Assembly: GCF_009707955.1 (NCBI RefSeq)
Contig: NZ_WMDQ01000008.1
Span: forward strand, 1 to 64,000
Length of the DNA stretch: 64,000 bases
Origin: Flavobacterium sp. LC2016-13
Lineage (GTDB): Bacteria > Bacteroidota > Bacteroidia > Flavobacteriales > Flavobacteriaceae
Direction of reading: 5' to 3'
Shown here: in pieces, positions 30,301 to 50,216 of the stretch
Layout of the letters: the number at the start of each line of letters is the position of its first letter
How positions within the stretch are numbered: position 1 is the first letter of the stretch
Position numbers and translations under genes: made by a program
The notes under the pieces: generated by a model
What the model was told of the DNA's origin: nothing
Seen by the model: only the letters and a program-made list of their open reading frames with translations
Databases searched by the model: none

Positions 30301-30360
30301 AAAAATCTACATTAATCCGCGTTTTCTCGTTAGCGAATCCGTATTATCCGTGTTCAATTT
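30301..30360. repeat. Dispersed repeat family 2, copy A
   Basis: A block with AATCCGCGTTTTC, TAGCGAATCCGT and ATCCGTGTTCAATTT recurs at 41758-41818 and 48241-48297. Copies A and B both follow a family 1 palindrome across a similar short linker, so the two modules appear to move or be copied together. Confidence 0.75.
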
Positions 30361-30372
30361 ATCGCAATCGTA

Positions 30373-41746: not shown

Positions 41747-41757
41747 AAATGAGAATA

Positions 41758-41818
41758 AAAATCCATCTAAATCCGCGTCTTCGCTTTAGCGAATCCGTTT
41801 CATCCGCATTCTATAAAT
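41758..41818. repeat. Dispersed repeat family 2, copy B
   Basis: AAATCCGCGTCTTCG, TTAGCGAATCCGTTTCATCCG recur as at 30301-30360. The block ends right at the symporter stop codon. Confidence 0.75.
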
Positions 41819-48062: not shown

Positions 48063-48390
48063 AGCGGTTAATTTATTTGGTTAATATTTCAAGTGAAATT
48101 ATTTTAAGCATTGAAAACAAGCATTTTAAGATAAACAAAAATATGAATTAAAATAATACCTCTTTATCAGGTCAATATTTAGATTGCTTTCCTTTACCCG
48201 AAGTTTCGTGACGCTCAGGAAGACAATTCTACGAAGAAAAAAATCCGTTAAAATCTGCGTTTTCGCGATAGCGAATCCGTTTTATGAGTGTTCAATTCTA
48301 TCTATCAATAATTAAGAATTGTTAATTTAAACAGCTTACTTTCTCATATTCAAATCACTCAAAAATCACGATCATAATTGTTGTTTTCAG
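48063..48390. other. Intergenic region before dnaX
   Basis: About 330 bp without a gene. It holds family 2 repeat copy C (48241-48297), a small hairpin-like CCCGAAGTTTCG word near 48198, and the dnaX promoter at its right end. Confidence 0.5.
48241..48297. repeat. Dispersed repeat family 2, copy C
   Basis: AAAATCTGCGTTTTCGCGA and TAGCGAATCCGTTTTATG then GTGTTCAATTC match the blocks at 30301 and 41758. Here no family 1 palindrome precedes it. Confidence 0.7.
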
Positions 48391-48441: not shown

Positions 48442-49527
48442 ATGGAACAATTTGTTGTATCGGCTCGTAAGTATCGCCCACAGACCTTTAAGGATGTTGT
48501 AGGCCAGAAAGCCATTACCAACACTTTGCTGAATGCTATTGATAGCAATCACCTTGCTTCTGCCCTTTTATTTACCGGACCGCGTGGCGTTGGAAAAACA
48601 ACTTGCGCACGTATTTTGGCTCGAAAGATAAATCAGCCCGGATATGACGATCCAAATGAAGATTTTGCTTTTAACGTTTTTGAGTTAGATGCCGCTTCAA
48701 ACAACTCGGTTGATGATATTCGTAATCTTATTGATCAGGTTCGAATCCCGCCACAAACCGGGCAATACAAAGTTTATATTATTGACGAGGTTCATATGTT
48801 GTCTTCGGCAGCTTTTAATGCTTTTTTGAAAACATTAGAAGAACCGCCAAAACATGCTATTTTTATTTTAGCAACAACAGAGAAACACAAGATTATTCCA
48901 ACGATTTTATCACGTTGTCAGATATTTGATTTCAAAAGAATTACGGTAAAAGATGCTAAAGAACATTTAGCTGAAGTTGCAACAAGTCAGGGAATTAATT
49001 TTGAAGACGATGCTTTGCACATTATCGCTCAAAAGGCTGATGGTGCAATGCGTGATGCTTTATCTATTTTTGATCGTGTGGTTTCGTATTGTGGAACTAA
49101 CTTAACACGTCAGGCTGTAACCGAAAACCTAAACGTTTTAGATTACGAAACTTATATCAGCGTTACAGATTTACTTTTAGAAAATAAAATTCCGGAGCTT
49201 TTATTGGCTTACAACGATATTCTGTCAAAAGGATTCGATGGACATCATTTTATTGCCGGCTTAGCTTCACATTTTAGAGATTTATTGGTCAGCAAAACTC
49301 CTGCTACTTTAAGTTTGCTTGAAGTGGGCGAGCAAGCGCAGCAAATGTATGGCGTGCAAGCTCAAAAATGTTCGCAAGACTTTTTATTAAAAGGAATTGA
49401 CATTGCAAACGATTGTGATTTAAAATATAAATTGAGCCAGAATCAGCGTCTTTTGGTCGAATTATGTTTGATGCAATTGGCCTCTATCAACTTTGATGGA
49501 GAAAAAAAAAAGTTGAACAATTCATAA
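48442..49527 (+). CDS. dnaX: DNA polymerase III gamma subunit (clamp loader), zero-frame product
   Basis: 361 residues from the ATG at 48442. It is an AAA+ ATPase: Walker A GPRGVGKTT near 42, Walker B VYIIDEVHML near 112, sensor 1 LATTEKHK and sensor 2 GAMRDALSIFDR near 210. The gamma/tau subunit loads the sliding clamp. One zinc-module oddity: between Walker A and B I see a single cysteine (TCARIL) and not the four-cysteine cluster of many homologues. The zero frame ends five codons after a ten-A tract at 49502-49511. The remaining tau-specific part continues in the -1 frame. Confidence 0.9.
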   Translation: MEQFVVSARKYRPQTFKDVVGQKAITNTLLNAIDSNHLASALLFTGPRGVGKTTCARILARKINQPGYDDPNEDFAFNVFELDAASNNSVDDIRNLIDQVRIPPQTGQYKVYIIDEVHMLSSAAFNAFLKTLEEPPKHAIFILATTEKHKIIPTILSRCQIFDFKRITVKDAKEHLAEVATSQGINFEDDALHIIAQKADGAMRDALSIFDRVVSYCGTNLTRQAVTENLNVLDYETYISVTDLLLENKIPELLLAYNDILSKGFDGHHFIAGLASHFRDLLVSKTPATLSLLEVGEQAQQMYGVQAQKCSQDFLLKGIDIANDCDLKYKLSQNQRLLVELCLMQLASINFDGEKKKLNNS

Positions 49528-49555
49528 TTCCGCCTACTTATTTTAAAAAAGGTGG
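49498..49555 (+). promoter_or_regulatory. Candidate programmed -1 frameshift or slippage site in dnaX
   Basis: Ten A residues (49502-49511) end in the in-phase heptamer A AAA AAG (49506-49512), the same heptamer and phase used in E. coli dnaX. A GGAG lies at 49498-49501. Downstream, CCGCC (49530-49534) can pair with GGTGG (49551-49555), a weak five-bp stem. Zero-frame stop is at 49525-49527. Either -1 ribosomal slippage or transcription slippage on the A run would join the two frames. Confidence 0.75.
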
Positions 49556-50216
49556 TTACTCTATAGTTGAAAGTCCAAAGGCGAAAGTTGAAAGTCTTGA
49601 AACTTCAAATACTAAATCCCAAATTTCAAATGCGGAACAGAATAACAATGTCACTCAAAATGACAATGTTGAAGTAAAAACTGAAACTGCCGCAATTGAA
49701 ACCCCAAAAGTTGAAACTCCTGCTACTCCACGTGCTGAAATAGGCGGTGAAACTAAAGTCTCTGCATTTTCTTTGGCGAGTATTCGCGCGAAAAAAGCGA
49801 TGGAAGAAAGCAGCAAATCTTTTGTAAAACCTTCTACTGTTTTGCCTACGGAAGAATTTACGGAAACCGAAATGTTAGTGCAATGGAATAAATATGCACA
49901 GCGTTTAGGAGATAAAGGTTTGAAAATCATGGAATCGTTATTATTAATTAACGATCCAACTTTGAACGGAACTGTAATTACGCTTGAGTTACCAAACGAA
50001 GGTTCTAAACTAGATTTTGAAAGTCAGATTAATGGGCTTTTAGGTCATTTAAAAGGACATTTACATAATCATGATATCACAATTGAAGTTATAGTAAATG
50101 AAACAATTGAGGCTAAAAGAAGTTTTAACGACCAAGACCGATACAATCGTTTATTAGAAATCAACCCAAATATTGAACTTTTACGTTCTACTTTTGGATT
50201 GGATTTACAAGGATAA
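49512..50216 (+). CDS. dnaX: Tau-specific C-terminal part of DnaX, -1 frame
   Basis: The -1 frame is open from the slippery tract to 50216 and adds 234 residues, giving a tau of about 591. It starts KKKVEQFIIPPTYFKKGG, runs through a low-complexity linker (about 49558-49760) and ends in a folded domain (EMLVQWNKYAQRL through LLRSTFGLDL) like the C-terminal DnaX region of other Bacteroidota. In E. coli the tau extension binds the polymerase alpha subunit and the helicase. An ATG at 49773 could start a separate short product, but no promoter precedes it. A homopolymer sequencing error is the competing explanation. Confidence 0.75.
   Translation, partial: VEQFIIPPTYFKKGGYSIVESPKAKVESLETSNTKSQISNAEQNNNVTQNDNVEVKTETAAIETPKVETPATPRAEIGGETKVSAFSLASIRAKKAMEESSKSFVKPSTVLPTEEFTETEMLVQWNKYAQRLGDKGLKIMESLLLINDPTLNGTVITLELPNEGSKLDFESQINGLLGHLKGHLHNHDITIEVIVNETIEAKRSFNDQDRYNRLLEINPNIELLRSTFGLDLQG

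Follow-up and report, generated by a model that had tools for sequence, protein, structure and literature searches.

Probable programmed transcriptional slippage at a conserved ten-adenine run in dnaX of Flavobacterium and other Bacteroidota

The dnaX gene of Flavobacterium sp. LC2016-13 probably yields both clamp-loader proteins, gamma and tau, by programmed transcriptional slippage on a run of ten adenines (A10), with an RNA hairpin directly upstream probably helping. From the sequence of this locus and of its relatives, we give this reading a probability of about 0.8. In the DNA, the gamma frame stops a few codons after the run and tau continues in the -1 frame. Across relatives the run is conserved, both frames other than that of tau are closed shortly after it, the frame that encodes tau changes between species, and predicted hairpin strength peaks exactly at the run. 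From these patterns we infer slippage by RNA polymerase, its stimulation by the hairpin, and the production and use of both proteins.

Layout of dnaX in Flavobacterium sp. LC2016-13

The window, that is, the whole stretch of 64,000 nucleotides analyzed here, comes from an assembly of 5.9 Mb in 61 contigs, and the closest named relatives of its dnaX belong to Flavobacterium. The zero-frame product (Table 1) matches NF011531 (positions 1 to 370), TIGR02397 (dnaX_nterm), PF22608, and, below the cut-off, PF12169, and a structure match search paired it with E. coli DnaX structures. An earlier note on this DNA, made from the letters alone, had stated that the zero frame ends five codons past ten A's and that the -1 frame runs on for 234 codons into a tau C-terminal domain. 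Both statements hold: the open stretch of the -1 frame begins at 49497, and the product of this frame matches the C-terminal part of NF011531, with no match to this part in a Pfam search. NF011531 is the NCBIfam gamma/tau model of DnaX (614 positions, cut-off 685 bits); each part scores below the cut-off, as expected for halves, and since both match this one model they are two halves of one gene. Because the window DNA templates gamma, tau requires a frame change of -1 (or +2).

Table 1. Features of the dnaX locus, in positions of the window
Feature	Position	Strand	Basis or remark
dnaX zero frame: AAA+ ATPase, lid, domain III	48442..49527	+	ATG 48442, 361 codons, stop TAA 49525-49527; gamma-length DnaX of 361 aa as templated
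Predicted RNA hairpin adjoining the run, candidate slippage stimulator	49482..49501	+	Computed fold; 5' arm 49482-49489, loop 49490-49493, 3' arm 49494-49501
A10 run, putative slippage site	49502..49511	+	Sequence; conserved in relatives
A_AAA_AAG heptamer, in phase with the zero frame	49506..49512	+	Sequence; phase not conserved among relatives
Tau-specific linker and C-terminal region, -1 frame	49512..50216	+	234 codons and stop 50214-50216; NF011531 412-613; dN/dS 0.22
TGA closing the third frame	49514..49516	+	Sequence; met by transcripts with nine or twelve A's
TAA closing the zero (gamma) frame	49525..49527	+	Fifth codon after the run; formed by tau-frame codons ATA-ATT

Within the kept open reading frames of the window (47 mechanically called frames covering 56,205 of the 64,000 bases), no A or T run other than the A10 of dnaX reaches nine, a pattern that suggests counter-selection of slippage-prone runs in coding sequence. 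Four other runs of nine, two A9 and two T9, all lie outside the kept frames. Upstream of dnaX, on the opposite strand, is a ParDE-type toxin-antitoxin pair (PF05016 and PF03693; 47049-47586, minus strand), and a homologue of the TMEM175 family of potassium channels (PF06736; 50261-50842, minus strand) converges on the gene. A repeat of about 60 nt at 48237-48300, also upstream of dnaX, recurs as 17 other partial copies genome-wide (E up to 1e-3), of which two lie elsewhere within the window (30314-30363 and 41752-41803).

The run is conserved across relatives

We searched 150 genomes of the genus and obtained 147 dnaX matches in 146 of them, of which 144 reach the run. Eleven of these 144 read through as one frame, one of them on a cut contig; the remaining 133 have open frames of 236 to 414 codons, the shortest on a contig that lacks the start. 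One match (G074) ends slightly before the run. Outside the genus, 142 genomes of the family gave a match: 24 clearly interrupted, 3 partial or cut by a contig end, and 115 read through. For the genus, 110 of the 147 matches were read (the 30 best and 80 that were fetched); for the family, all 24 clearly interrupted genomes were read deliberately and the others in part; beyond the family, at the levels of order, class, and phylum, most but not all matches were read.

Every one of the 102 distinct loci read in other members of the genus has a run of at least nine A's, as do 67 of 69 distinct loci from other genera of the family and 41 of 46 loci from other families of the order, these 41 having an assigned tau frame. 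Of the 362 run-bearing loci, 303 have precisely ten A's, irrespective of the tau frame. Conservation of the run and of the zero-frame stop, with purifying selection on the -1 frame, had been put forward in the earlier note as what a programmed site should display in relatives, and all three are found: besides the 102 of 102 loci of the genus, an ATA codon supplies the gamma stop in 151 of 155 close relatives, and dN/dS is 0.22 (see below). One contrary finding named there was that of uninterrupted relatives lacking the run; the uninterrupted matches in the genus are the 11 of 144 given above, and those that were read still carry it.

A set of 25 loci encodes tau in frame 0 and lacks a run up to a distance of 150 nt from the site; among these, L329 has an A10 located 280 nt past the site. 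In four other loci dnaX is interrupted with no run of at least nine near the site: three have eight A's (L312, L314, and L403) and one has none longer than six (L398). Shorter runs or a different signal may serve there. Six MAG loci titled Rhizobium (L073 and L079), Chitinophaga (L074 and L086), Sphingobacterium (L072), and Bdellovibrio (L081) carry a Flavobacterium-like dnaX with 90 to 93% identity; their organism titles are probably wrong. One genome of the genus (G140), with a stated contamination of 4%, has two dnaX copies on separate contigs (G140:C18 and G140:C52; L186 and L194) and is likely a mixed assembly.

The tau frame changes between species

From 421 loci read, minus unrelated ones, we placed 399 distinct loci. 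Tau is encoded in the -1 frame in 222 of them, in frame 0 in 132, and in the +1 frame in 8; the rest comprise the 25 frame-0 loci without a run at the site and 12 with no assigned frame (Table 2). Loci with identical DNA (15) and those with no assigned tau frame (12) were dropped before counting, and the loci from named records and from genus genomes may overlap in species.

Table 2. Frame of tau in the loci placed, by group
Group	-1	0	+1	No run	Frame not assigned	Remark
Other genomes of the genus	93	8	0			Plus one locus with A10 cut by a contig end
Named records	68	7	1			
Rest of family	19	44	4		2	Interrupted loci over-sampled
Rest of order	15	24	2		5	
Rest of class	16	37	1	13	3	
Rest of phylum	10	12	0	12	1	

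Mapped onto a FastTree phylogeny of the N-terminal part of the protein (last eight residues omitted), these states require at least 52 changes of tau frame, against 104 to 124 with shuffled labels. The tree is unrooted, so gain and loss are indistinguishable. At least six changes are found among the 48 run-bearing loci from genomes of one to three contigs, a list compiled by hand. Two loci illustrate such a change: L124 and L125 have nearly the same sequence around the site and ten and nine A's, respectively, with tau in frame 0 in the former and in -1 in the latter. A run of nine A's also occurs in L048 (Flavobacterium sp. YO12), where the surrounding sequence otherwise matches and tau is placed in +1 as a result; this shorter run is either a genuine change or a draft error, and the frame counts may contain draft homopolymer errors of this kind (L048 and L125, both with A9). 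The tau frame is under purifying selection: approximate dN/dS has a median of 0.22 over 248 usable pairs, out of 600 sampled among 152 sequences.

Both frames other than that of tau are closed

The earlier note took the short distance from the run to the zero-frame stop as a sign of design. The argument is stronger than first stated because both non-tau frames are closed. Among 138 representatives sharing less than 85% identity, both were closed at a median of 17 nt past the run, within 20 nt in 110 and within 35 nt in 132. Synonymous shuffles of the tau codons gave a mean of 61.9 nt (Wilcoxon p 1e-23), and other positions within tau gave 62.4 nt (p 1e-22). Taken singly, only 17 of the 138 reach p 0.05 against synonymous shuffles. 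In the 25 loci without a run, the median was 108 nt, and 4 were closed within 20 nt.

Codon use around the gamma stop follows the same pattern. In 151 of 155 close relatives with tau in -1, this stop is formed by ATA at the first isoleucine of Ile-Ile or Ile-Val, against a share of ATA among upstream isoleucine codons of 15% (684 of 4,521). The third frame stops 5 to 8 nt past the run in 154 of these 155, via TGA or TAA. In genes with tau in -1, this third frame is out of reach for a -1 ribosomal shift and within reach of a mixed mRNA population.

A predicted RNA hairpin adjoins the run

In the window, the 20 nt preceding the run fold as an 8-bp hairpin that ends at the first A of the run. Its energy of -8.4 kcal/mol (28-nt fold) is exceeded by 0.5% of synonymous-codon shuffles and by 0.5% of same-phase positions in the gene (p 0.005 for both). 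This is the RNA structure that stands out at the locus. Downstream, the earlier note had described a weak stem of five bp; the stem in fact has 6 bp, and its weakness is confirmed, since shuffled sequences fold equally well (z -0.31 on 69 nt). Likewise, the 50 nt downstream of the run held no excess structure over 138 representatives (p 0.99).

Across 140 representatives (<85% identity), hairpins ending within 2 nt of the run had a mean energy of -3.97 kcal/mol; synonymous shuffles averaged -2.20 (p 2e-7) and other positions in these genes -1.03 (p 8e-10). A profile along the gene stays level at -0.63 (s.d. 0.15) apart from a peak of -3.40, which coincides exactly with the run. Hairpins of -4 kcal/mol or better lie at the run in 41% of the representatives, against an average of 6% elsewhere. 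Only 28 of the 140 reach p 0.05 singly against synonymous shuffles, and in 63 no hairpin as strong as 2 kcal/mol lies 2 nt or less from the run. The 42 representatives with more than 15 nt between the domain III match and the run showed no significant excess over synonymous shuffles (p 0.18).

Stem sequences vary between families. For 63 families outside that of Flavobacterium, each with one representative chosen by locus number and not by hairpin, 29 had a hairpin of -4 or better and 20 ranked in the best 5% of positions in their own gene; the excess over synonymous shuffles was weaker here (9 of 63 singly, Wilcoxon p 0.010). Within the family, 95 distinct sequences retain stem pairing in 81% of cells, against 44 to 48% for slid pairings and 74% for column shuffles (maximum 77%). 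Changes on both sides of the stem occur in 36 cells, above shuffles (mean 11, maximum 22) and not above slid pairings (37, 31, and 22). With many lineages lacking it, we regard the hairpin as a component that is common in the cassette without being universal.

Proposed mechanism and alternatives

In the mechanism that we propose, RNA polymerase would stutter on A10 and produce mRNAs differing in their number of A's. Those with ten (the templated number), nine, twelve, or thirteen would end within six codons and give gamma of about 361 aa; those with eight or eleven would enter the tau frame and give tau of 590 or 591 aa. The nascent-RNA hairpin, whose 3' arm ends where the run starts, would probably assist: it would form at the upstream edge when the entire RNA-DNA hybrid is rA:dT, a geometry like that of intrinsic terminators. 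Slippage by RNA polymerase would account for the length of the run, close to that of the RNA-DNA hybrid, quoted as 9 to 10 bp (PMC5009743). It would also account for the indifference to tau frame and codon phase, for the double closure, and for a hairpin on the 5' rather than the 3' side.

Two mechanisms could act on such a run, and the earlier note favored RNA polymerase over the ribosome. We arrive at the same preference: what relatives conserve is the length of the run and not its phase, all three frames are used for tau in one locus or another, the remaining two are closed, and no stem signal is seen on the 3' side. The competing view, a programmed -1 ribosomal frameshift on A_AAA_AAG in which the zero frame would give gamma and the shift would give tau, comes second and seems improbable as the main mechanism. 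It fits the window itself, where the heptamer is in phase and tau lies in -1. The likeness to E. coli drawn in the earlier note is thus correct for this sequence, but the phase is kept in only 21 of 56 representatives with tau in -1. Any run of nine or more A's includes some in-phase A_AAA_AAA, so that in principle -1 slippage could occur in any gene with tau in frame 0 or -1, and it may contribute in part. It would leave the 8 distinct loci with tau in +1 unaccounted for, as well as the closure of a third frame that a -1 shift does not reach. As to stimulators, Chlorobium phaeobacteroides has potential ones like those of E. coli (PMC5009743), whereas GGAG abuts the run in 17 of our 140 representatives; Shine-Dalgarno pairing is described as seldom used by Flavobacterium (PMC8710568), and a hairpin just 5' of a shift site as attenuating -1 shifting (PMC6321510).

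Far less probable is an unprogrammed, drifting homopolymer, in which frame errors are tolerated as slippage rescues some full-length tau and gamma is useless. Rescue by poly(A) slippage is known in insect endosymbionts (PMC5009743), and the frequent changes of tau frame would agree with drift. We reject it nonetheless, for frame-0 species keep a run that they do not need for tau, both other frames are actively closed with an ATA codon bias that preserves the gamma stop, and the kept frames of the window contain no other A or T run of nine or more. Finally, homopolymer indels are common in draft genomes and 11 of 144 genus matches are uninterrupted, but a sequencing or assembly error in a gene that truly has one open frame is next to impossible: the run is there in 102 of 102 distinct genus loci, so the A10 layout is not such an error, and the same -1 layout with A10 recurs in 93 distinct genus loci and 68 named records, genomes of one to three contigs included, with a codon use that preserves the stops.

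Returning to transcriptional slippage, we lean towards a broader reading for the Bacteroidota, held with less assurance than the mechanism at this locus. The dnaX genes of the phylum may share an ancient cassette of hairpin, A10, and double stop, with selection acting on the cassette. Since RNA polymerase would make all three mRNA frames, the tau frame encoded in the DNA would be nearly neutral and would drift among 0, -1, and +1. Genome annotation would consequently treat one and the same functional gene as intact in some species and as disrupted in others.

Significance

We found no published account, in the open-licence literature searched, of the upstream hairpin, of the switching of the tau frame, or of the spread of this arrangement across Bacteroidota. 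If our reading is correct, it adds a working and widespread case of hairpin-assisted transcriptional slippage outside mobile elements, in a single replication gene. The species that differ in tau frame would form a natural series in which selection on the slippage signal can be separated from selection on the reading frame. The apparently split dnaX genes of Flavobacterium and its relatives would be explained, and the locus would offer a direct means to measure slippage by the RNA polymerase of Bacteroidota. The protection of the stop codons of gamma in these genomes bears on the old question of the purpose of gamma.

Comparison with known systems

In E. coli, a -1 shift in dnaX makes gamma, with the help of an upstream Shine-Dalgarno-like element and a downstream stem; the element stimulates at a spacing of about 10 nt. 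The present locus shares the gene, the in-phase heptamer A_AAA_AAG, and the probable outcome of gamma and tau. Unlike in E. coli, the shift would be needed for tau, and neither stimulator is supported: a scan for GGAG alone finds it only 4 nt before the heptamer in the window, and the downstream stem-loop is absent as a signal both there and over the 138 representatives.

The insertion sequence of Roseiflexus (Penno et al. 2015, as presented in PMC5009743) undergoes stem-loop-mediated slippage on a T5C5 motif with loss of one C, and the hairpin is required. Our locus resembles it in having an RNA stem-loop directly 5' of the slippage motif, here a computed one that is absent in many lineages. 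It differs in that the motif is A9 to A11 and may slip without a hairpin, and in that the gene is a housekeeping gene.

Antonov et al. in 2013 reported 17 two-ORF dnaX genes from 12 genera, nine of them with A10, for which transcriptional slippage was inferred (PMC3711429). Like those genes, the window has two ORFs offset by -1 in the DNA, with A10 where they meet. That paper names Chlorobi species, and Flavobacterium is absent from its main text; relative to that main text, the window and its relatives add Flavobacterium, the frame switching, the double closure, and the upstream hairpin. Reversed dnaX layouts, with tau arising from frameshifting, are mentioned in PMC5009743.

In dnaX of Thermus thermophilus, transcriptional slippage occurs at A9 (PMC1088944, PMC5009743). 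As there, the window has a run of at least nine A's after the clamp-loader domains and stops near it in both non-tau frames, with gamma and tau probably arising from one gene. The difference lies in what the DNA encodes: in Thermus, the zero frame encodes tau and gamma results from slippage, whereas the window encodes gamma and slippage must give tau. An uninterrupted tau frame as in Thermus, which the window does not have, is found in 132 of 362 run-bearing loci. Given the precedents of Thermus and of Antonov et al., and the added features for which we found no account in print, the locus belongs to a known kind and brings new features to it.
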